DNA from: Longimicrobiales bacterium
GTDB taxonomy: Bacteria; Gemmatimonadota; Gemmatimonadetes; Longimicrobiales; Gaopeijiaceae
Reading direction: 5' to 3'
NCBI GenBank assembly: GCA_029245345.1
Contig: JAQWPM010000015.1
Span: 62,001 to 126,000 of the forward strand
DNA length: 64,000 nucleotides
The notes beneath the pieces were generated by a model. It was not told where the DNA came from and searched no databases. It saw nothing but the letters and a program-made list of their open reading frames with translations. This document shows, piece after piece, positions 19,952-46,649 of this stretch (its first letter is position 1; each line of letters opens with the position of its first letter). Position numbers and translations under genes: made by a program.

Positions 19952-20386
19952 TTACGCGCGCAAACGGGCCACCAGGCCCTGAAGCCCTAGAAGGTAGCCC
20001 TCCACCCCGAAGCCATAAACCACACCCGAGGCAACTGGGGAAAGGTAAGAGTGCCGCCGGAAGCGTTCGCGGCCCGCGGTATTGGAGAGATGAACCTCGA
20101 CGAACGGCGTCTCCACACCCACGAGCGCATCACGCAGGGCGATCGAAGTGTGGGTGTACGCACCAGGGTTGATGACGAATCCGTCTACCCGGGCGGAGGC
20201 CTCCTCCACGTGGTCGAGCAACTCCCCTTCGTGATTCGACTGGAAGGTCTCGACCTCGACGCCGAGTTCAGCCCCGAGCGACGTCAGCTTCGTATTCACA
20301 TCGTCTAGGGTCTCGGACCCGTATACCTCAGGCTCTCGTCTTCCCAGCAGCCGGAGGTTGGGTCCGTGGATGATTCCGATCCTCAT
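19952..20386 (-). CDS. aroQ: 3-dehydroquinate dehydratase, type II
   Basis: Third step of the shikimate pathway. 144 residues with the family motifs GPNLRLLGRREPEVYG (catalytic tyrosine and flexible lid), INPGAYTHTSIALRDAL, and EVHLSNTAGRERFRRHSYLSP. Type II enzymes of this length form dodecamers. The ATG overlaps the upstream TPR gene stop by four bases. Confidence 0.97.
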   Translation of the reverse strand: MRIGIIHGPNLRLLGRREPEVYGSETLDDVNTKLTSLGAELGVEVETFQSNHEGELLDHVEEASARVDGFVINPGAYTHTSIALRDALVGVETPFVEVHLSNTAGRERFRRHSYLSPVASGVVYGFGVEGYLLGLQGLVARLRA

Positions 20387-21744
20387 GTGTCGTCCTCGTC
20401 GTTCGAAGTCAGCATCCGGCCGAAGAAATCACCCATCGTAGGCCCTTTGTTCACGTCGACGTCCTCGCCTGCCTCTTGCTCCGCCCAGGCGAACGGTGTG
20501 TCCACGTCGTGTTCATGGTCTCCGGCCTCGGCAAGATCCCGAGCCAGGGCTTCAACCTCGTCGGCGGGCTCACGTTCCGAGGTTGAGGGCACCGGGTCGA
20601 TCGGCGCTTGTTGTAGTTCTTCGGGGCCGGCGGCGGCCGCTTCTTTCTGGAGTCTGACCACTTCGTCCAATCGCATCTGGAGGGCATCCTTGTCCGGACT
20701 GGCGTCGACGAGGTTCTGGTATACCTCAACCGCCCGACTCCACAGTCCCTGGGTGACGTACAACTCCGCCATCGTTCGGGTATTAATGGGATCGGCCAGG
20801 GCGTGCTCCGCCGGAGCATCAGCCATGGCTTCTTCCTCTGCAGTCGCTGCCCCTTCGTCGTCAACATCCGTGTCATTGGGAGCGTTGGCCGCCAACTCCT
20901 CCATAAGCTCGACTTCGTCGGGTGCCAAAGCGGCAAAGTCTTGAACGTCGAACTCCGACGCTTCCGGCGCCAAGGCCGCGAAGTCCTGAACCTCCTCGGC
21001 GAGCATTCCAGGCTCGAACGGATCGAGGTCGACCATCTCCGTCTCGATGTCCTCCGGTGCCAATGCATCGACCCCAAGGACTTCTTCCTCGGCAGCGGGC
21101 TCTTCAACACCGGTGGACAGGTCTTCAGGAGAGAGCGCCACAAAGTCGTGGACGACTTCGTCCTCACTGCCGCTCACAGCCTCAGAGTCGACCGCAGCAG
21201 GCTCGGGCTCCTCGATCGGTGGCTCGTCCGGGGCCAGAGACCCGAAGTCGGTTACGTCATCATCGGAGAGAGATGCGTCAGCTTCAGCGACGGCGTCCCC
21301 TGGTTCGTCCGGCGCGAGTGCAGCGAAGTCAGCGACCTCTTCTTCAGCCACAGACGCGGGCTCGTCTCCCGGCTCTGGATCCAGAACGGACAAATGATTG
21401 TGTAGGCCTCTCGCCTCGTCCACCTCACCTCGTTCCTCTAGCGCGACAATGAGCGTACCCATCGCGTCGACGTTCTCCGGGTCTAACTCCAGTGCGCTTC
21501 GGGCCGCGATCTCCGCCTCAGCAAAGAGCCCTTGCTCACCATACAAACGAGCGGCAACCACATGTCCTGGACTGAAATCCGGATGCCGACCGAGGCCATC
21601 GTTTAGTAATTCATGCGCCTGCTTCAGGTCACCCGCGCGCCTATAGGCGTCTGCGAGAGGCACGAAGCCCCGGCCTTCCGGGTCGCGGTCGGACCAGAAA
21701 AGAGACCGTAGGGTGCGAATTTCCCCTTCGAGGGATTCGATCAC
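20383..21744 (-). CDS. TPR protein with an acidic linker of repeated DFAALAPDE-type motifs
   Basis: Unknown function. With a GTG start at 21742-21744 the protein has about 453 residues. The start is chosen because a GGAG lies five bases upstream and because the best promoter -10 box covers the longer start at 21804. The N-terminal 120 residues form about three TPR units (ADAYRRAGDLKQAHELL, ARLYGEQGLFAEAEIAARSALELDPEN). Then comes a long Glu/Asp/Ala/Pro linker carrying six copies of a short motif (VxDFAALAPDE-like, near residues 138, 165, 199, 225, 253 and 268). A further TPR unit follows (TMAELYVTQGLWSRAVEVYQ, about 323-352). No signal peptide is visible, so it is probably cytoplasmic. It heads the 21 kb minus-strand run. 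Confidence 0.8.
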   Translation of the reverse strand: MIESLEGEIRTLRSLFWSDRDPEGRGFVPLADAYRRAGDLKQAHELLNDGLGRHPDFSPGHVVAARLYGEQGLFAEAEIAARSALELDPENVDAMGTLIVALEERGEVDEARGLHNHLSVLDPEPGDEPASVAEEEVADFAALAPDEPGDAVAEADASLSDDDVTDFGSLAPDEPPIEEPEPAAVDSEAVSGSEDEVVHDFVALSPEDLSTGVEEPAAEEEVLGVDALAPEDIETEMVDLDPFEPGMLAEEVQDFAALAPEASEFDVQDFAALAPDEVELMEELAANAPNDTDVDDEGAATAEEEAMADAPAEHALADPINTRTMAELYVTQGLWSRAVEVYQNLVDASPDKDALQMRLDEVVRLQKEAAAAGPEELQQAPIDPVPSTSEREPADEVEALARDLAEAGDHEHDVDTPFAWAEQEAGEDVDVNKGPTMGDFFGRMLTSNDEDDT

Positions 21745-21799
21745 GAGGGCTCCGGAACAGACAGGATAGGGGGTATCAGTTAACGCATCGTCAGGGCGC

Positions 21800-21829
21800 A
21801 ACATACGGAAGTCCGCGAAATAGTGTCAA
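21800..21829 (-). promoter_or_regulatory. sigma-70-type promoter for the 21.8 kb minus-strand gene run
   Basis: On the minus strand a perfect -35 TTGACA (21824-21829) and a -10 TATGTT (21800-21805) are separated by 18 bases. Transcription would start near 21793, leaving about 50 bases of leader before the GTG at 21744 with its GGAG. The promoter lies back to back with that of the ppiD-like gene. Confidence 0.6.
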
Positions 21830-21988: not shown

Positions 21989-23821
21989 ATGATGCGTCAA
22001 ATGAGAGAGGCAACGAAGCCGATCATGCTGCTTGCAGCACTCGCTTTCGTCTGTCTCATGATTTTCGAGTGGGGGATGGACATCAGCGGTCAAAGTTCCG
22101 GTGGTCTGGGCGAAATCGGCTCGGTCAACCGCGAGTCCGTGACGTACGACGCTTATATGGCGACGTACCGCAACCTCTACGACCAGGTGCAACGTGGTCA
22201 GGAACTCCCGATCACGTCGCAGCAAATCAAAGAGATCGAGGATGCTGCGTTCGACGAGGTCGTCAACGCGCTCCTGATCCGTCAAGAATTGCGTAAGCGC
22301 GGCATCTCCGTGACCAACGCAGAGATCAGTCAGGCTGCTCAGCTCAGTCCGCCGGCCGACCTCCGACCGCAATTCACGAGCGCGGCCGGACAGTTCGACG
22401 CAGTCGGGTATCAGATGTTCCTGGCGACGCTTCCCCCGGATCAATTGGTTCTGCTCGAGGCGTACTACCGAGACGTGATTCCGAGGGGCAAGCTCCTCCG
22501 GCAGATCGCGAGCGGGATCTTCATGTCCGATGGCGACCTGTGGCGGCAGTTCCGCGACGAGAACGACCAGGTCGAGATTCGGTTTGCGCCCCTGGATCCT
22601 TCGTCACGATACGACGACGCTGACTTCCCGGTGGCCGCAGACGATGTGGCGGACTACTACGATGCGAACCAGGACGAGTTCGCCACTCCCGCGCTTGCCC
22701 GCGTCGTCGTCACCGTGCTCGACAAGACACCCACGGCCGCAGACACGGTCTCCATGGGAGACAAAGCCACCACCCTGCGCCAGGAGATCCTGGACGGCGG
22801 CGACTTCGCCGAGGTAGCGACTCGCGAATCGTCGGATGCGGGCAGTGCACAGATCGGCGGTGACTTGGGAGTCTTCCCCAAGGACCGCATGGTCAACGAG
22901 TTCGACAGCGTCGCCTTCTCGATCGGGCTCAACACCTTGAGTGAGCCGATTCGCACATCCTTCGGGTATCACCTTCTCGAGGTCACGGATCGTTGGGGTC
23001 AGGACAGCGCCCAGGCGCGTCACATCCTGATTCCGTTCGAGCGGACCGACGACAGCGAGTTCGCGCTCCTCATGCTGGCGGACTCGCTCGAAGACATGGC
23101 CGAAACGATGTCACTTGCTGAGGCCGCAACCAATGCGGGGCTTACCAGCGCCACGATCGAGCTTGCTGAAAATTTCCCCTTCGTACAGGGTGCGGGGCAG
23201 GTCTCCGAGGGCGCGGACTGGGCATTCCAAGACGCCGAGCCCGGCGACGTGAGTCCGGTATTCGAGACGCAGCAGGCGTTCTATGCGCTGGAGTTGATCA
23301 GTGCGGAGGAGGAGGGATTCCTTCCGCTCGGAGACGCGACAGTAGCCATCGAAGCCACGCTGCGCTTCGCGATGAAGATGGAGCGGGCAACCTCTGACGG
23401 CCAACAAATCGTTGACCGTATCGCCGCTGGCGAGACGTTCGACGCCGTGGTCTCAGAGATGGGACTCGAGATCACCGAGACCGAGTTCTTCAGCCGAAAC
23501 GACTTTGTTCCTGGCATGGGCCGTCAGAACGGCGCCATCGGTGCAGCGTTCGGGCTACGCCCGGGTGAAATCAGTGGTGTCGTCACCACACCAGCCAACG
23601 CGTTCATCATCCAGCAAATGAACTACGCAGTCGCGGACTCGGCGGCGTGGCTCTCACAGACGCTCCAGCAGCGTCAGACGCAGGTCGCGGTGGTCGAACA
23701 GACGCGACTCGCAGAGTGGATCGAAGCGCTCAGAGCATCGGCCCGGATTATCGACCGTCGGGCTGAAGTACTCGCTCCGGTGGACGAAGATGCACCGCTT
23801 CAAATGCCGAGGGGTTTCTAG
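21989..23821 (+). CDS. ppiD: SurA/PpiD-type peptidyl-prolyl isomerase, membrane-anchored periplasmic chaperone
   Basis: 610 residues. A single N-terminal membrane helix (about 12-28, IMLLAALAFVCLMIFEW) anchors it in the inner membrane with the rest in the periplasm, as in PpiD. A SurA-N-like helical region follows (about 45-175, with DEVVNALLIRQELRKRGISVTN split over two helices). A parvulin-like domain lies at about 230-335 (GGDFAEVATRESSD, GGDLGVFPKDRMV, SFGYHLLEVTDR). A second, degenerate parvulin-like segment follows ARHILIPFE. PpiD aids folding of proteins leaving the Sec translocon. Two adjacent ATGs (21989 and 21992) could start it. It is transcribed alone and ends at a strong terminator. 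Confidence 0.87.
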   Translation: MMRQMREATKPIMLLAALAFVCLMIFEWGMDISGQSSGGLGEIGSVNRESVTYDAYMATYRNLYDQVQRGQELPITSQQIKEIEDAAFDEVVNALLIRQELRKRGISVTNAEISQAAQLSPPADLRPQFTSAAGQFDAVGYQMFLATLPPDQLVLLEAYYRDVIPRGKLLRQIASGIFMSDGDLWRQFRDENDQVEIRFAPLDPSSRYDDADFPVAADDVADYYDANQDEFATPALARVVVTVLDKTPTAADTVSMGDKATTLRQEILDGGDFAEVATRESSDAGSAQIGGDLGVFPKDRMVNEFDSVAFSIGLNTLSEPIRTSFGYHLLEVTDRWGQDSAQARHILIPFERTDDSEFALLMLADSLEDMAETMSLAEAATNAGLTSATIELAENFPFVQGAGQVSEGADWAFQDAEPGDVSPVFETQQAFYALELISAEEEGFLPLGDATVAIEATLRFAMKMERATSDGQQIVDRIAAGETFDAVVSEMGLEITETEFFSRNDFVPGMGRQNGAIGAAFGLRPGEISGVVTTPANAFIIQQMNYAVADSAAWLSQTLQQRQTQVAVVEQTRLAEWIEALRASARIIDRRAEVLAPVDEDAPLQMPRGF

Positions 23822-24529: not shown

Positions 24530-25558
24530 TCATCGGCGGCGATCCACGGCGTAGGACACGGCGTCGCGGAGGGCGTCGAAGGACTCACCTTCAGGAAGAC
24601 CCTCGAGCGCCTCGAGCGCCATGCCCGCGTAAGCGTCTGCCCGCTCCCGCGCGTACTCCAGCCCACCGCGCGCTGAGACAATGGAGATGATGTGGTCGAT
24701 CTCCTCGTCCGTCGGGTCGACACGGGTGAAGAACGTACGAATCTCTTGTTCTTCAGCCTCGGTGGCGTGCGCCAGCGCGCCCACCAAAGGAAGCGTAACC
24801 TTCCGTTCACGAAGGTCGTGCCCAGTCGGTTTTCCGGTGGCGGCTTCCGTCCCCGTGTAGTCCAGCAGATCGTCCGCAATCTGGAAGGCCATCCCCAGAT
24901 TGTGGCCGTACTGGGCTAGCTGAGTGCGGTATTCACCGGTACCGGCAAGAGCACCCATCTCACACGAGGCAGACATCAGCGATGCCGTCTTCGCCGCAAT
25001 GAGGCGGTAGTAATCGTCTTCAGTAAAGTCGAGCGCGTCGTACGAGGTCAACTGACGCATCTCACCGACGGACATCTCATTCGCCGCACGCGCCAGAACC
25101 GTCAACGCGTCCAAGTGGCCGCGCTGGGCCAGTTCTGTGACGCCGCGGGAGTACAGATAGTCCCCCATGATGATCGCCACCTGGTGCGTCCAAAGCGCAT
25201 TCACCGTCGGGAGCCCTCGTCGTAACACCGAGTGGTCTACCGCATCGTCATGCACGAGCGTAGCGAGGTGGACCAGTTCCACGACCGCTGCCAGCGTGAG
25301 TGCGTCTTCTTCAGGCTTTCCGCCGACTCGGCTCGACAGCAGGAGCAGCGTGGGGCGGAAGAGTTTGCCTTGCAAGAAGAGGAGATGCTCGTTGACGTCC
25401 TTGATCATGGAAAAATCGGAAACCACAATCCGGCGCAACTCATCCCCAACTCGGCTCAGATCCTCGCGAACCGGGGCCTGGATCGACTCCAGGTCGAGGC
25501 CGCGTCCGGCGACGGACGGTCCGGGGTCGATTTGGGTGGAGGGCTGTATCAAGGCCAT
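24530..25558 (-). CDS. long-chain trans-polyprenyl diphosphate synthase
   Basis: Elongates farnesyl diphosphate with isopentenyl diphosphate to the side chain of quinones. 342 residues with the first aspartate-rich motif HDDAVDHSVLRRG, a GDYLYSRG segment, and the second motif QIADDLLDYTG. Length and motifs match the IspB/HepT type; chain length (heptaprenyl or octaprenyl) cannot be read from sequence alone. The start overlaps the upstream TPR gene stop by one base (TAATG). Confidence 0.93.
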   Translation of the reverse strand: MALIQPSTQIDPGPSVAGRGLDLESIQAPVREDLSRVGDELRRIVVSDFSMIKDVNEHLLFLQGKLFRPTLLLLSSRVGGKPEEDALTLAAVVELVHLATLVHDDAVDHSVLRRGLPTVNALWTHQVAIIMGDYLYSRGVTELAQRGHLDALTVLARAANEMSVGEMRQLTSYDALDFTEDDYYRLIAAKTASLMSASCEMGALAGTGEYRTQLAQYGHNLGMAFQIADDLLDYTGTEAATGKPTGHDLRERKVTLPLVGALAHATEAEEQEIRTFFTRVDPTDEEIDHIISIVSARGGLEYARERADAYAGMALEALEGLPEGESFDALRDAVSYAVDRRR

Positions 25559-27489
25559 TAACGCAGCTTCCGCAGTCGTTCCGTCACGTCCGCGAAGTTG
25601 ATGTCCAAGGCAAAGACCTTGTGGAAGAACTCGACGGCCGACTCGTTGTTGCCCACCTGCTCTTGGGCGAGGCCGAGGTAGTAGTAGATGCCAATCAGCT
25701 CGTCCTCGATGCCGTGCCCAACCCCTAGTGCACGCGTGAGCGAGTTCACCGCAGCTTCCGGCTGACCGACTTCCATGAAGGTCTGGCCGAGCATTTCATA
25801 CGTCGGAAGGTGATCTGGAGACGCTCGCAGCGCAGATTGGAACTCACTGATGGCTTCGTCGAGCAAGCCCATCTCTTTGTACGCGGTGCCCAAGTCATGA
25901 TGCGCGCGAACATCACCGGCATCGAGGTTCTCGGAGACTTTCTCCTTGAACTGCGCCAGCATGTTCGCGAAATCGGCTTCTTCATCACCTGACGGTTCTT
26001 CGTACGCAACCGTGAAGCGGGTCGTCTTCTCGGGCTCGTCACCCAAGATCATCGCGCCTAAGTCGACGTAGTCCTCGTTCGCCGCAACCTCACGCACCGG
26101 CTGGGCCGTCGGTGCCGACCCTAGCACCGCTAACGCTACCTCGTTGTTCGGATCCGCCTGAAGAACCTGCTGATACGCCCCCTGGGCGCTGGCACTTTCG
26201 CCCGCCCCGTCCAGCGCCTGCGCCAAACCAATGAAGGCTTCGGCGAGAACAGCGTCATCGGCCACACCATATGCGAGCTCGACCATTCGTTGGCGAAGCC
26301 CCACATCGGAAGGGCTCGAGGCAATCTGTACTCGGATGGCGTGAAGGGTGAGCGCTTCCTCCTCGGCCGGGGCAGCTTCCTCGGCGACTTCCTCGGCGAC
26401 TTCCTCGATCGCGGCCTCGACGAGTTCATCCGCTTCGGCTGGCTCGGCATCGACGTCGACGACGAACGTGGGCAGTTCAGCGCCGGCCTTTTCTTCGGCA
26501 TCGTCGCCCATGTCGAACATCGGCAACTCAGCGCCGACCTCTTCTTCGGCATCGTCGCCCATGTCGAACATCGGCAACTCAGCGCCGGCCTCTTCTTCGG
26601 CATCGTCGCCCATGTCGAAGGTCGGCAACTCAGCGCCGGCCTCTTCTTCGGCATCGTCGCCCAGGTCGAAGGTCGGCAACTCGACCGCGTCTTCGTCGGC
26701 GGCGTCTTCAGCACCGATGTCGATGTCAAAGCCGCCTAGATCGACGTCGGCCACAGCGACGCCGGCCTCGGCCTCGGCAGTATCGTCGTCCCCGCCACCG
26801 ACATCAGCGAACTGACCCATCAGATCGTCCGCATTGGAGATGTCGCCCGAAGGCGGAGCCATCGCGGCCGCTGGTGCGCCAAGATCTGCGCTTGGATCGA
26901 GCTCCCGGATCTTGCCTTCTACCACGCTCGCTCCTGGGTCACCCTTCGCCATCAGGTGTCCGTACGCGATCGAGAGCTGCTCAACGGCGTCCGAGACCTG
27001 GTCATGCGAAGCCATCTGCTCAGCCACCACGACCCGCATGTCGGTCTCGTCCGGGGCGAGGTCGCAGAATTCCACCAAGGCCCGGAAGGACTCTTCCATC
27101 TCACCCGCCTGCTGCATACGCTCGGCGTAGGTCAGGAAGTTGGTGCGCGCGTCAGGCAGGAACCCTTGCTCGGCACGGATCTGGCCCATGCGCAGATATG
27201 CCTGATGCCGCTCCGGCACATTCCGGATGATCTTCTTGCAGACTGCGATGGCGTTGTTCGGTAAGAAGGCCTCCATGTAAAGGTCTGCGGCCTGCCCATA
27301 TGCCTCTACAGCTGCGTCGAGATTGCCGACTCGTACGCAGAGGTCGCCTACACGATTGTATAGTCCGGAATCCGGCTGGTCGTCTTGGACGAGCTGCGCA
27401 ATGGCTTGCGAATATTGATCAAGCGCTTTCTGCCACTCTTCCTTCTGCTCGTGGCGTCGGGCTTGTCCTTTGAGCGATTCTATGCTCAT
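25558..27489 (-). CDS. TPR protein with a 17-residue acidic tandem repeat
   Basis: Unknown function. 643 residues without signal peptide. Residues 1-180 form about four TPR units (YNRVGDLCVRVGNLDAAVEAYGQAADLY and neighbours). Residues about 205-370 are an acidic, Ala-rich linker holding four near-identical 17-residue units of the type ELPTFDMGDDAEEEAGA (about 273-340). The rest, from about 385, returns to TPR units (YKEMGLLDEAISEFQSALRA, YYLGLAQEQVGNNESAVEFF). The architecture (TPR, acidic repeat linker, TPR) mirrors the 20383-21744 protein although the motifs differ, so the two may be functional analogues. It is co-transcribed with the formiminotransferase (4-base overlap) and the polyprenyl synthase. 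Confidence 0.82.
   Translation of the reverse strand: MSIESLKGQARRHEQKEEWQKALDQYSQAIAQLVQDDQPDSGLYNRVGDLCVRVGNLDAAVEAYGQAADLYMEAFLPNNAIAVCKKIIRNVPERHQAYLRMGQIRAEQGFLPDARTNFLTYAERMQQAGEMEESFRALVEFCDLAPDETDMRVVVAEQMASHDQVSDAVEQLSIAYGHLMAKGDPGASVVEGKIRELDPSADLGAPAAAMAPPSGDISNADDLMGQFADVGGGDDDTAEAEAGVAVADVDLGGFDIDIGAEDAADEDAVELPTFDLGDDAEEEAGAELPTFDMGDDAEEEAGAELPMFDMGDDAEEEVGAELPMFDMGDDAEEKAGAELPTFVVDVDAEPAEADELVEAAIEEVAEEVAEEAAPAEEEALTLHAIRVQIASSPSDVGLRQRMVELAYGVADDAVLAEAFIGLAQALDGAGESASAQGAYQQVLQADPNNEVALAVLGSAPTAQPVREVAANEDYVDLGAMILGDEPEKTTRFTVAYEEPSGDEEADFANMLAQFKEKVSENLDAGDVRAHHDLGTAYKEMGLLDEAISEFQSALRASPDHLPTYEMLGQTFMEVGQPEAAVNSLTRALGVGHGIEDELIGIYYYLGLAQEQVGNNESAVEFFHKVFALDINFADVTERLRKLR
26470..26673 (-). 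repeat. four tandem 51-bp units inside the TPR gene
   Basis: Units at 26470-26520, 26521-26571, 26572-26622 and 26623-26673 differ by only a few bases, with a degenerate fifth starting at 26674. The 51-bp period keeps the reading frame, so copy number could change by slippage or unequal recombination without disrupting the protein. Confidence 0.95.
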
Positions 27490-41155: not shown

Positions 41156-41384
41156 CGCGTTTTTTCAAGTTGACTTCAAATGTTTCCCTGACGCATCGAG
41201 TCGAAGAAGCCGGGACTAGGCCGGCGCGCAGGCGGAATCCTGAGTCCGGAAGGGGTTTCTGATACCGGATACAGGCACCCGGGCGGCGGCGAAGCGACTT
41301 GCGGAGGAGCCGTTGGAGGGGAAACTCTTGTTAGTATCATTAACCTCCTTTGTCGGCACCACTCACCCCGAACGCACCAGACCC
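41156..41384. other. intergenic stretch without recognised gene
   Basis: Between the LysM promoter and the giant DUF11 gene. It includes a T-rich tract (about 41160-41167) and several purine-rich stretches (GGAGGAG, TTGGAGGGG), but I found no convincing plus-strand promoter or structured RNA. A TTG at 41313 opens the frame of the following gene, but the lipoprotein signal begins later at 41385. Confidence 0.4.
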
Positions 41385-44300
41385 ATGCGCACTCGGCGCC
41401 TCATTTCCCTCGCCACCTTCGCGGTGATCGCACTCGTATCCTCGTGTGTGGACGCCGAGGTATCGCCGACGGCACAGACGCCAATTGGAACCGCCACCTT
41501 CGCGGTGGTGCCGACCTTTTCGGGCGCCGTCGCCTCTTCCGCGGCCCAAGCCGGTGACATCACCCGGATCCGGGTGACGGCAAGACTGCAGAGTACCGCG
41601 GAGGTCCTGGCAACGTTCACGCAGGACGTGGACCCTGCCGCCAACGAGTGGACGTTGACCGTTGAGATACAGGTCCCGGCCTCGGGTGGACAGGCCGTGC
41701 TCACGATCGAGCTCGTGAGCGTGGCCAGTGATGGTGGAGAGACCGTCGAGTTCAGCGGCCAGACGCAGCCGATCTCGTTGACGACCGGGGCCCCCACTCA
41801 AGCCAGAGAAGTTCCGGTCGGCCGCGGGACCATCGAGAACCTGGGCGTAACGGGCCTCACGATCGAACCGACGGGTGATACCCTCGTGATCGGCGGCTCC
41901 ACGAGTGTGAGTGCCGCGACCACGCCCGCCGACGCTTCTAATTCTCATAGGATCTTCTTCAGCTCTCTGGACCCGACCATCGCCACGGTTTCTGACAACG
42001 GAACCGTTACAGCTGTCCTCGACGGGAGTGCCCGGATCGTCGCCGCAGCAGGTCTACATGCGGACACGTCCGCCATCTTGGTGCTCAAAGGTTTCGCAGA
42101 CCTGAGCATCCTGAAGCGTCTCACCAACGAGGAGCAGTCGAGCTTCAACGAAGGCGACGCAATTTCCTACACCGTGGTGGTGGATAACTTCGGGCCGCTG
42201 ACAGCCTCCAACGTCCAAGTCCTAGATTCAGCCGATGCTGGGCTGACGCTCCTGTCCGGCCAGGTCACATCGGGGACCTTCGATGTCGTCTCGGGTGTCT
42301 GGGTGCTCGATTCGATAGTCAATGGAGCCACTGACACACTCGTTGTGTTGGCGCGTGTGGATGCTGGAACGGTGGAGCAGGCGCTCTGGAATCGTGCGCG
42401 GCACCTGGGCCTTCCACTCCAAGTGGATACGGCTGCCGGCAATGATGTCGACTCCGTGGAAATCCACGTCGTCGAGCCCGAAGCCGATGTGAACATCACA
42501 AAGCAGCTCGCGGACGACACTCGCAGCTACTTCGAGGGTGACACCGTTGAGTTCATGATTGCCGTTGAGAATTTCGGTCCCGGAGTGGCGACCGCTGTCC
42601 AGGCCCTCGATTCCTTAGACAAGGGCCTGACCTATAGCCATGTCGCAGACGCCGCTCCGTTCGATGTCACTTCCGGCGTGTGGACGGTGGGGGTTCTAGA
42701 GAACGGAGCTAGCGATACTCTCCGCCTTTTCGCCGTGATCGACTCCGGTACGGCCGGAGTGCAGTTATGGAATCGGGCACGGAGCCTGGGGCTCACGAAC
42801 CAGGTCGACCTGGATCCGACCAACGACGCCGACTCAGTCTCGGTCTCGGTCAGCCACACCAACGCTGACCTCAACGTCTCGAAAGCTCTGGTGGACAACA
42901 GCGCGACGTACTTCGAGGGCGACACCGTAGAGTTCAGGGTCATCGTGGACAACTTCGGTCCCGCGACCGCAACGCTCCTAGCGCTGCGCGACTCTCTCGG
43001 GTCGGGAATGTCTCTCGTGTCACTGAGCCCGCTGCGCGGCCTCGTCGACATCGGCACCGGCACGTGGGAGTTGGACTCAATCGTTGGGGGTATGAGCGAC
43101 ACGTTGGTCGTGGCCGCCCAGATCGATTCCGGCACCGTCGGACAGAGGCTCACGAACTACGCGTGGAGCGTCGGTCTCACGGAACAGCTCGATACAGTTA
43201 CGTCGAACGACGCGGCGTCGGCGTGGCTCTCCGTGGACGTGCAGTCGGCTGACATCAACGTGACGAAGACGGCCGACAACACACTGCCCTTCCCCGGCGA
43301 CACGACCACTTGGATGATCGTGATCGACAACTTCGGCCCGTACACGGCGAAGAATGTGACGGTCTTGGACCAGGGTGACTCGATCATGATCGAGTCCTTC
43401 TCGGTCACGTCCGGAACAGTCGACACCGTGAACGGGGTGTGGACGATCCCGTCCATCCCGGACGGCGGCTCGGACACCCTCTTGGTGCGATCGGTCGCGA
43501 AAGTGGGACAAGTCGGCGACACGCTCTGGAATCGGGTGCGCGTTCAACCGCTGACCACCGAGATCGACCCGGACTCGACGAACAACGCTGACTCGACCTT
43601 CATCTTCGTGCAGCAACGGTACGCGGACCTCAACATCACGAAGACCGTCAGCGACAACGAACCGTCCGAGGGCGACTCCATCGTCTACACAATCGTGGTC
43701 GAGAACTTCGGTCCTCACGATGCGAACAATGTCCGGTTGAAAGGCATATCCGACAGCATTCGAACAACCGGACCTTCCGTTGTAACCACCACCCAAGGTT
43801 CCACGACAGACTATGAGACATGGACAGTGGGGACGATTCCTTCCGGCGGAGCGGACACCCTTCAGCTGCGGATGCAATTGGATTCGCAGATGGCCGATTC
43901 GCAGATGGCCGGCGACCCGCTTTGGAACCGGGTCCTAGTCGATCACTTGGATGAGGTCGACTCCGCATCTTGGAACGACGCTGACTCCGCATTCATCGTG
44001 GTGGACCAGAAGGTGGCCAACGTCGCGCTAAACAAGTTCGTCGACAACACAATGCCGTACGAAGGTGACACGATCACCTACACCATCGAGCTACAGAACT
44101 TCGGGACCCACACGGCAGATTCAGTACAGATTTATGACTCGCTCCAAGCCTTCTTCGACGGTGATCTCACGGTCACAAGTAGGACCCTGACCAACGGGAC
44201 GTTCGATACGCTGACGAGCGTGTGGACCGTTGGACCGTTGGCACCCGGACAAACGGATTCTCTCCGGCTCTCGTTCCAGGTCGACTCGGGCACGGTCTCG

Positions 44301-46649
44301 GACACTATAGTCAACTACGCGTGGGTGTCCGCACTGTTCGGTGCTGCGGAGTTCGATACCACGAATGACTATGCGAGCGCATCCGCCGTGGTGGGCCAGA
44401 AGGTGGCCAACGTCGCGCTAAACAAGTTCGTCGACAACGCAATGCCGTACGAAGGTGACACGATCGCCTACACCATCGAGCTACAGAACTTCGGGACCCA
44501 CACGGCAGATTCAGTACAGATTTATGACTCGCTCCAAGCCTTCTTCGACGGTGACCTCACGGTCACAAGTAGGACCCTGACCAACGGGACGTTCGATACG
44601 CTGACGAGCGTGTGGACCGTTGGACCGTTGGCACCCGGACAAACGGATTCTCTCCGGCTCGCGTTCCGGATCGACTCAGGCACGGTCTCGGACACTATAG
44701 TCAACCACGCGCGTGTGTCCGCACTGTTCGGTGCTGCGGAGTCCGATACCACGAATGACTATGCGAGCGCATCCGCCGTGGTGGGCCAGAAGACTTCGGA
44801 CCTAGCCCTGTCCATGGGCGTAGGCAACACGATGCCGTTCGAGGGCGACACGGTCACGTTCTTCGTGGAGCTCCATAACTACGGGTCCTTCCCCGTCGTC
44901 GTAAAGGACGTGCAAATCAGCCAAACGCACGACAGCACGCTTAGCGAGCCCTACGCGAACGCGCCAACGACCGGCACGTGGAACGGCTCGGTATGGGCTA
45001 TCGACTCCATAGTGCCGGGCGGAACGGACACGCTCTTCATGGCGATGGAGCTCCAGGTCGGTATGTCCGTCCCCGGTGACACGCTGCGCAACAGCTTCTT
45101 TGTGGTGACTTCCCATGGCGCGTTCGACACCGATCCCACCAACGACACTGCTAGCGCGTTCGTAGTGCACCAACAAAGGGTGGCGGACCTCAGCGTCGTG
45201 AAGACCGTGGACAACACGAATCCCTCGGAAGGTGAGGACCACACCTACACGACCATCATGAGAAATGTCGGCACTCTGCCGGTTGGCGATGTCGTTCTGA
45301 ACGACCCGATTCCTGCCGGGTTGAGCTATGTGAGCAGAAGTTCGAGCCACGGTGCCTTTAACCACGTGACGGGTCTGTGGGACCTCGGCTCGATAGTCTT
45401 TAATCCCGGTGACACGGCCTGGCTGAGCGTGACGCTCGATCCCGATCCGGGCTCGATCGGTACAACGATCCAGAACACAGCGACCTTGGCGACCCCGCTG
45501 GACGCGAACTCCGTGAACGACACGTCGAGTGTCGCTGTCACGGTGCACAACGCGGACCTCTTCGAGATGTCGAAGACCGTAGACAACGCCACGCCGTCCG
45601 AGGGTGAAGACTTCACCTACACGGTCATCTTCCGGAACATCGGTGCGTCCGAGCTCGAGAACGTGGACGTCTACGACTCGATCCCGGCTGGTCTGAGCTA
45701 TGTGAGCAGAAGTTCGAGCCACGGTGACTGGAACCCCACGACGGGTCTGTGGGACCTCGGCTCGACGGTCTTTAATCCCGGTGACACGGCCTGGCTGAAC
45801 GTGACGATCGATCCCGATCCGGGCTCGATCGGAGACACCATTTGGAACCGGGCCTGGGGCTCACCGGACCAGACGGACGGGCAGACCGCGAACAACATGG
45901 ACTCGGTCGCTGTCACGGTGCACAACGCGGACCTCTTCGAGATGTCGAAGACCGTAGACAACGCCTACCCGGCCGTGGAAGAAGACTTCACCTACACGGT
46001 CATCTTCCGGAACATCGGGCCGTCCGAACTCGAGAACGTGGACGTCTACGACTCGATCCCGGCTGGTCTGATTTACGTCTCCAGGTCGACGAGTCACGGT
46101 GACTGGAACAACACGACGGGCCTCTGGGACCTCGGCTCGACGATCTTTAATCCCGGTGACACGGCCTGGCTGTACGTGACGCTCAGGCCAGCCATCGGAG
46201 CCAGCGGGACCACCATTTGGAACCGGGCGTGGGGCTCACCGGACCAGACGGACGCTCAGACCACCAACAACATGGACAGCGTGACGGTTAACCCCACCTA
46301 CGGGGGCTACGTCGACGTCACGATGTCCGTTACGAACGCTTCTCCTCAGGAAGGCGAGACGGTTCAGCATGAGATCACCGTCACAAACAACGGAGCGGGC
46401 ACCGCGACGAGCGTGAACCTGCTGGACTCACTGCCGACCACCGTGGGAGACAAGACCCTCGTGGGCGGATTTCCGACGCAGGGCAGTTGGGTCTCCGGCG
46501 CAAGCGACTGGAGCGTTGCCAACCTGCCGGCGGTCGACCCTAAGCACGATGGGTCGATCGCAGAGGGAGCCCGCGGCCACTTCGATGCCGAGCCGCCGTG
46601 GAGAGGACCTGACGCCGCGCTGCGACAACGGGGCATTACGGACGACTGA
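41385..46649 (+). CDS. giant lipoprotein with a Big2 domain and about twelve DUF11-like repeats
   Basis: About 1754 residues from the ATG at 41385, chosen because it gives a clean lipoprotein signal (LATFAVIALVSSC). An N-terminal 130-residue strand-rich domain is followed by a Big2 domain (about 155-245, IEPTGDTLVIGGSTSV, SLDPTIATVSDNGTVTAVLDG). Then come about eleven full repeats of 115-130 residues of the DUF11 type (ADLNVSKALVDN, GDTVEFRVIVDNFGP, SDTLVVAAQIDSG), and a twelfth that stops midway and ends in an unrelated tail. Such proteins are long surface stalks or adhesins. No sortase, T9SS or barrel-type anchor is seen. Neighbours give no functional clue. Ends at a terminator. Confidence 0.88.
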   Translation: MRTRRLISLATFAVIALVSSCVDAEVSPTAQTPIGTATFAVVPTFSGAVASSAAQAGDITRIRVTARLQSTAEVLATFTQDVDPAANEWTLTVEIQVPASGGQAVLTIELVSVASDGGETVEFSGQTQPISLTTGAPTQAREVPVGRGTIENLGVTGLTIEPTGDTLVIGGSTSVSAATTPADASNSHRIFFSSLDPTIATVSDNGTVTAVLDGSARIVAAAGLHADTSAILVLKGFADLSILKRLTNEEQSSFNEGDAISYTVVVDNFGPLTASNVQVLDSADAGLTLLSGQVTSGTFDVVSGVWVLDSIVNGATDTLVVLARVDAGTVEQALWNRARHLGLPLQVDTAAGNDVDSVEIHVVEPEADVNITKQLADDTRSYFEGDTVEFMIAVENFGPGVATAVQALDSLDKGLTYSHVADAAPFDVTSGVWTVGVLENGASDTLRLFAVIDSGTAGVQLWNRARSLGLTNQVDLDPTNDADSVSVSVSHTNADLNVSKALVDNSATYFEGDTVEFRVIVDNFGPATATLLALRDSLGSGMSLVSLSPLRGLVDIGTGTWELDSIVGGMSDTLVVAAQIDSGTVGQRLTNYAWSVGLTEQLDTVTSNDAASAWLSVDVQSADINVTKTADNTLPFPGDTTTWMIVIDNFGPYTAKNVTVLDQGDSIMIESFSVTSGTVDTVNGVWTIPSIPDGGSDTLLVRSVAKVGQVGDTLWNRVRVQPLTTEIDPDSTNNADSTFIFVQQRYADLNITKTVSDNEPSEGDSIVYTIVVENFGPHDANNVRLKGISDSIRTTGPSVVTTTQGSTTDYETWTVGTIPSGGADTLQLRMQLDSQMADSQMAGDPLWNRVLVDHLDEVDSASWNDADSAFIVVDQKVANVALNKFVDNTMPYEGDTITYTIELQNFGTHTADSVQIYDSLQAFFDGDLTVTSRTLTNGTFDTLTSVWTVGPLAPGQTDSLRLSFQVDSGTVSDTIVNYAWVSALFGAAEFDTTNDYASASAVVGQKVANVALNKFVDNAMPYEGDTIAYTIELQNFGTHTADSVQIYDSLQAFFDGDLTVTSRTLTNGTFDTLTSVWTVGPLAPGQTDSLRLAFRIDSGTVSDTIVNHARVSALFGAAESDTTNDYASASAVVGQKTSDLALSMGVGNTMPFEGDTVTFFVELHNYGSFPVVVKDVQISQTHDSTLSEPYANAPTTGTWNGSVWAIDSIVPGGTDTLFMAMELQVGMSVPGDTLRNSFFVVTSHGAFDTDPTNDTASAFVVHQQRVADLSVVKTVDNTNPSEGEDHTYTTIMRNVGTLPVGDVVLNDPIPAGLSYVSRSSSHGAFNHVTGLWDLGSIVFNPGDTAWLSVTLDPDPGSIGTTIQNTATLATPLDANSVNDTSSVAVTVHNADLFEMSKTVDNATPSEGEDFTYTVIFRNIGASELENVDVYDSIPAGLSYVSRSSSHGDWNPTTGLWDLGSTVFNPGDTAWLNVTIDPDPGSIGDTIWNRAWGSPDQTDGQTANNMDSVAVTVHNADLFEMSKTVDNAYPAVEEDFTYTVIFRNIGPSELENVDVYDSIPAGLIYVSRSTSHGDWNNTTGLWDLGSTIFNPGDTAWLYVTLRPAIGASGTTIWNRAWGSPDQTDAQTTNNMDSVTVNPTYGGYVDVTMSVTNASPQEGETVQHEITVTNNGAGTATSVNLLDSLPTTVGDKTLVGGFPTQGSWVSGASDWSVANLPAVDPKHDGSIAEGARGHFDAEPPWRGPDAALRQRGITDD
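44011..44790 (+). repeat. two nearly identical tandem 390-bp DUF11 units
   Basis: Bases 44011-44400 and 44401-44790 (130 codons each) differ at only a handful of positions, far fewer than any other pair of repeats in the gene. This points to recent duplication or gene conversion. Confidence 0.93.
45546..46295 (+). repeat. second tandem DUF11 pair with a 375-bp period
   Basis: Units beginning at 45546 and 45921 share long identical stretches (for example around CACAACGCGGACCTCTTCGA and the following ATGTCGAAGACC). Divergence is greater than in the 390-bp pair. The unit before 45546 is also clearly related. Confidence 0.85.

Follow-up and report, generated by a model that had tools for sequence, protein, structure and literature searches.

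An acidic TPR protein conserved across Gemmatimonadota carries a lineage-specific repeated linker peptide and may act as a HubP/FimV-like hub

SgmX is a TPR protein of Myxococcus that activates type IV pili. In HubP, as described in PMC12918733, an unstructured acidic cytoplasmic arm carries imperfect repeats that vary in number between close species, and a TPR provides the client interface. The TPR of kinesin light chain binds short W- or Y-acidic peptides, in which hydrophobic residues have acidic neighbors (PMC6214655 and PMC13078783). Here we describe TPR1, an acidic protein with two TPR blocks encoded on the minus strand (20383–21744) of a 64,000-nucleotide stretch of DNA, hereafter the window; literature searches found no publication on its family. 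Like HubP/FimV, TPR1 has an acidic region predicted to be unstructured. It differs in having two TPR blocks around the arm, in its locus, and in its short h-x-x-LAP-D/E core (h, hydrophobic) in place of longer acidic repeats; a TPR lies on the C-terminal side of the arm but no FimV model matched, and no periplasmic LysM-like domain was detected by a Pfam scan (E up to 1). As for SgmX, TPR1 gave no match to its model (NF052243) and showed no Roadblock or PilM linkage. The comparison with kinesin light chain is an analogy only, as that protein is eukaryotic and its ligand has an aromatic core residue and lies on cargo adaptors.

As listed, the ORF has 473 aa (20383–21804, minus strand), and TPR1 orthologues begin at its V21, about 20 residues later. 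Based on these orthologue starts and on a GGAG upstream, judged by eye, the start is likely the GTG at 21744, which gives a protein of 453 aa with a pI of about 4.1. No hydrophobic or membrane segment was found (maximum 19-residue Kyte-Doolittle mean 0.8). All parts lie on the minus strand. The N-terminal TPR block (model residues 27–126, 21367–21666; Pfam TPR_16, 4.7e-12; pLDDT about 88–94) is followed by linker 1 (aa 127–318, 20791–21366), acidic in composition and, by AlphaFold, disordered, with 33% D/E and not a single K or R. Then come a second TPR block (model helices 319–376, starting INTRTMAELYVTQGL, 20617–20790; Pfam TPR_7 and AlphaFold), linker 2, and a short C-terminal helix, GPTMGDFFGRML (20410–20445), which corresponds to YFxxLLxW in relatives. 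The window protein has lost the FxxWLxxLK tail known from other families. The Pfam scan placed TPRs on both sides of the linker, at aa 50–138 and 345–372 in the numbering of the 473-aa ORF, in agreement with the first-pass annotation, which had described an acidic linker separating TPR blocks. The tandem 34-residue helix-turn-helix repeats of the TPR clan were recognized by Pfam, in the model and by the structure search, which returned generic TPRs. In the AlphaFold model, built on an alignment of two sequences, the TPR helices have block-mean pLDDT values of about 76–94 and the linker values mostly below 50.

Linker 1 contains six copies of a short peptide of the pattern VxDFxxLAPDE, spanning 20914–21336 on the minus strand. 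In the order of the protein these are VADFAALAPDE (21304–21336), VTDFGSLAPDE (21223–21255), VHDFVALSPED (21121–21153), VLGVDALAPED (21049–21081), VQDFAALAPEA (20959–20991), and VQDFAALAPDE (20914–20946). The first-pass annotation had already counted six repeats in the acidic linker, and six can be read directly; the interval it gave, 20883–21284, holds five of them and leaves the first just outside. We defined the core as [VILMF]xxL[AST]P[DE], which occurs six times in the window linker. Among 20,000 composition shuffles it was found 0 times in 19,484, once in 513, and twice in 3; since no shuffle exceeded two, the six copies are not a product of chance. Pairwise comparison of the copies gave a difference of 76% for synonymous sites (pS 0.76) and of 24% for nonsynonymous sites (pN 0.24). 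The 11 codons before and after them gave 75% and 72% for synonymous and 57% for nonsynonymous differences, and, the flanking codons not being truly homologous, this contrast should be read as approximate. Copies 5 and 6 are identical over nine consecutive residues (VQDFAALAP), yet 6 of the 9 codons differ; judged from these codons, recent slippage is excluded as the origin of the window copies.

A DFxxLAP-type pattern had six matches in the genome of the window, four of them within the TPR1 gene itself, and the idea that the motif is a tag common to many proteins was rejected. Over 20 genomes, a VPIxxLAPD-type pattern matched TPR1 and scattered sites, but, because a reversed-pattern control also matched, we treat the scattered matches as mostly chance; repeats arranged as arrays were seen in TPR1 only.

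TPR1 is widely distributed. Using the family (f) and genus (g) labels of the genome search, in which f1 is the family of the window, the gene was found in 72 of the 101 f1 genomes (30 of 35 genera) and, across the phylum, in 133 of 150 genomes (72 of 75 genera). Among close relatives it was found in 52 of 59, a figure that counts the genome of the window and may include matches to other TPR proteins; L002 is a named Gemmatimonadales record. The phylum-wide search for the architecture, which the first-pass annotation had proposed, returned a constant layout: a TPR block (EIRxLRxxFWSxRDPEGRAFAPLADAYRR in f1), linker 1, a TPR block with TxTMAELYxxQG, linker 2, and a YFxxLLxWxPG-like helix, to which most lineages add the tail FxxWLxxLK. 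With a loose pattern the tail was present in 19 of the 20 proteins of families f4, f5, f7, and f9. Considered as a shared tag, the tail was rejected, as its exact pattern, searched in 17 genomes, had nine matches and each of them fell at a TPR1 place.

The genomic location is also very conserved. Apart from TPR, the gene names used here (aroQ, efp, accB, accC, SurA/PpiD, LptD, TatC, CpoB, FTCD, and IspB) are putative and were given from sequence features. The stop codon of TPR1 overlaps by four bases (ATGA, 20383–20386) the start of what is presumably aroQ, encoding a type II 3-dehydroquinase (19952–20386, minus strand). In the other direction lies a divergent gene, 21989–23821 on the plus strand, which we take to encode a SurA/PpiD-type peptidyl-prolyl isomerase. 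Of the loci with room for it, 60 of 62 have aroQ directly downstream of TPR1, with the four-base overlap in 35, and the divergent SurA/PpiD-type gene is upstream in all 75 loci. The corresponding counts in the other families are 20 of 20 for aroQ and 19 of 20 for the PpiD-type gene, the remaining locus being near a contig end. Two loci, L019 and L073 (genomes G013 and G104), have a TPR1 with several motif copies and no aroQ match directly downstream; efp is there instead. Where the loci cover it, the order CpoB-TatC-LptD-FTCD-TPR2-IspB-PpiD-TPR1-AroQ-EfP-AccB-AccC is kept. TPR2, the second TPR protein, adjoins the polyprenyl synthetase gene, so that the linkage of both TPR genes to housekeeping genes noted at first pass is borne out.

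Two further observations concern related or repetitive proteins. In a paralogue at L107 (2053–4668, genome G053), the TPR half is followed in one protein by an HD domain (HD_5, 6e-39) and, at the C terminus, by DUF4388 (8e-15), with a receiver-like stretch between these two by eye; no aroQ or PpiD match was found beside it. Elsewhere in the window (41313–46649), an ORF of 1778 aa has many similar repeats (VxNFGPxxAxxVxxxD...) and, by eye, resembles a large surface protein.

The motif is far more restricted than the gene. Taking one protein per genus, the core was present in 22 of the 27 f1 genera covered (genera with only weak or partial matches, such as g9, g24, and g21, being left out), and its 81 copies compare with 1.05 in shuffled sequences. 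It was found in 1 of the 16 proteins of the two sister families f2 and f3, a set without the L107 paralogue, and in none of the 20 proteins of the four other families f4, f5, f7, and f9. By its absence from these 20 and from 15 of the 16, the motif is lineage-specific. An earlier statistic, with a stricter pattern that misses the V-x-DF type, gave 172 copies in 51 of 64 f1 proteins against 3.5 in shuffles, and 1 of 17 in f2/f3; this count includes near-duplicate species and cut contigs, leaves out L080 and L083, and places L107 with f2/f3. Homologues lacking the repeats, which the first-pass annotation had named in advance as evidence against its scaffold family, are therefore what the families outside f1 contain. 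Its proposal of a scaffold family with repeated motifs is plausible within f1, where many members have only one copy, and finds no support as a plan common to all families.

Within f1, the number and position of the copies change rapidly. The number per protein ranges from 1 to 18 (L087), and many members have a single VP[IV]ESLAPD directly after the C-terminal helix (YFxxLLxWxPG), with no repeat there. Arrays occur in linker 1 in the window, L008, L086, L087, and L093, and in linker 2 in L009, L016, L018, and L073. With a pattern slightly wider than the core and near-duplicate species included, the 53 uncut f1 proteins with a recognized second TPR divide into 31 with the motif in linker 2 alone, 13 with it in linker 1 alone, 2 with it in both linkers, and 7 without it in either; the tail was kept by none of the 15 proteins with linker-1 copies. 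Arrays are found in at least four places of the tree (G019/G104/G029/G095; G097; G004; the large clade of G000), and parsimony over five states required 11 changes overall. Some arrays are young tandem duplications, with mean nucleotide identities of 95% in L008 (five copies) and 92% in L065 and a regular spacing of 16 or 18 residues. A fixed peptide with free placement is the pattern that a linear docking motif would show. In f3 and f4 (L029, L030, L225, L226, L232), other linker-2 peptides were seen by eye, FSF[DE]xFF and, in f4, ISLDxVFG, perhaps a motif vocabulary of their own.

TPR2 (25558–27489, minus strand) lies, as seen from TPR1, beyond the PpiD-type and polyprenyl synthetase genes. 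Its linker contains the motif [E/D/P]LPhh[D/G]h in 14 of 16 orthologue pieces from f1, f2, and f3, with 34 copies against 1.16 in shuffles; as this pattern was picked after reading the sequences, the figures are descriptive and not a test. They agree with the earlier claim of a second TPR protein with a linker motif of its own. The C-terminal part folds mainly as TPR helices in AlphaFold (two-sequence alignment) and matches the SgmX model over aa 257–642 (2.9e-18), at 65.6 bits far below the family cut-off of 1800. Upstream of the C-terminal TPRs, TPR2 orthologues have a conserved [YF]VDLG[AS][LM]xLxD, a peptide similar to the TPR1 motif in its VDLGALAPDE form; we treat this likeness as a lead only.

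The two TPR genes tend to be absent together. A search of 28 genomes (E up to 1e-20) found TPR2 in 21. It is absent in G025, G068, G022, G026, and G014, from which TPR1 is also absent, and in G028 and G033, two small genomes that have kept TPR1. What remains of TPR2 in G028 (L199, 6208–6288) is a 27-residue C-terminal match, flanked by FTCD and the polyprenyl synthetase gene. Genera g25, g22, g26, and g14 lack TPR1. Within the 14–16.5 kb around the locus, G025, G084, G022, and G026 have each of the ten further genes that were tested, in order, with exactly TPR1 and TPR2 missing; in G014, FTCD is missing as well. The clean double absence was read at L195, L196, L197, L198, and L201, the two genes being gone from separate positions in a block that is otherwise conserved. 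A tree built from aroQ, efp, and ppiD sets the g25/g22/g26 group (support 1.0) apart from G014, which groups with G004 and G128 (0.992), so the joint absence, if it represents loss, would have arisen at least twice. That both genes are absent from the same two lineages, with the neighbors kept, suggests that TPR1 and TPR2 may work together, the weight of this being that of two events only, with both genes in one neighborhood.

Several other explanations for the repeats and the protein have to be considered. Under neutral low-complexity drift, the linker would be an acidic spacer, with repeats arising from slippage and composition. The young, regularly spaced arrays of the kind seen in L008 and L065, the strong differences in copy number among relatives, and the absence of the motif outside f1 would fit such a process, but the window copies are synonymously saturated with a conserved peptide, the excess over shuffles holds across genera, and the single-copy core after the YFxxLLxWxPG helix is kept in many members where nothing is repeated. 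Drift, already disfavored, is improbable on these grounds, and a selected, family-wide motif is supported instead. Alternatively, TPR1 could be a polar landmark of the HubP/FimV type, placing clients at the cell pole by its acidic arm and TPR. HubP also has imperfect acidic repeats in variable number, carried by an unstructured arm, and a TPR proposed to bind clients (PMC12918733); the weak SgmX match of TPR2 points the same way. We consider this landmark role unlikely, since TPR1 has no LysM, FimV match, or membrane segment, PilM is present where TPR1 is missing (g25, G022, G026; G014 has neither), G006, G033, and G028 have TPR1 but no strong PilM match, and most f1 genomes lack Roadblock domains. 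A link to the type IV pilus was rejected, PilM being distributed independently of TPR1, as was an MglA/MglB-type polarity system, because no more than 6 of 28 genomes carry Roadblock domains and 4 of these 6 lie outside f1.

Two further alternatives start from the neighbors. AroQ is a dodecamer, and the arrays could bind it or one of the block's other enzymes (EF-P, AccB/AccC), as the close and recurrent linkage to aroQ would lead one to expect; AroQ is, however, retained in 9 of 9 tested genomes without TPR1, G013 and G104 have TPR1 and its motifs with no aroQ at that place, and the L107 paralogue is located elsewhere, which makes a scaffold for operon partners quite improbable. The conserved CpoB-to-AccC order would also suit a role of TPR1 and TPR2 in envelope biogenesis, as adaptors serving the genes around them (SurA/PpiD-type, LptD-type, Tat, CpoB). 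Against such adaptors, to which we assign a low probability, are the lack of a membrane segment in TPR1 and the block remaining intact without both TPR genes in G025, G084, G022, and G026.

The reading we prefer, and to which we give about an even chance, is that TPR1 is a cytoplasmic, very acidic TPR hub with disordered linkers, which in f1 carry putative linear docking peptides. By analogy, it would most likely work in a HubP/FimV-like mode without being a member of that family. The peptide h-x-h-x-x-L-A-P-[D/E] would be a binding site, possibly a short helical turn bound by a folded partner; it could work from either linker, its position being irrelevant, and copy number would set the avidity. 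The receptor would be private to the TPR1/TPR2 system, the simplest candidate being the TPR groove of TPR1 or TPR2, and the role of the hub may be to gather partners at one place. A conserved short motif repeated in a predicted-disordered region, as expected of a multivalent linear-motif scaffold, is present in TPR1. In the AlphaFold model, with linker pLDDT mostly below 50, nothing indicates that the motif docks on the TPRs, which for a two-sequence alignment says little, and the 7 of 53 uncut f1 members without the motif count against docking. As f2/f3 and f4/f5/f7/f9 keep the gene and the locus without the motif, docking by this peptide is not, on the comparative evidence, the core function of TPR1, and a scaffold with multivalent docking sites is plausible for f1, not for the whole phylum. 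A more elaborate version, which we find rather unlikely, is a two-part Gemmatimonadota hub in which the private linker peptides (hxxLAP[DE] in TPR1 and [E/D/P]LPhh[D/G]h in TPR2) would be read either by the TPR grooves of the two proteins or by a single common receptor, with TPR1 arrays of up to 18 copies driving a membrane-less body and the pair being lost as a unit twice.

TPR1 is a nearly universal, unnamed, scaffold-like gene with a fixed genomic place, in an experimentally difficult phylum. Lineages in which both TPR genes are missing provide natural knock-outs with which its function could be sought, and the arrays, which shift fast in number and position around a constant peptide, offer a natural valence series, from 1 to 18, for relating multivalency to assembly.
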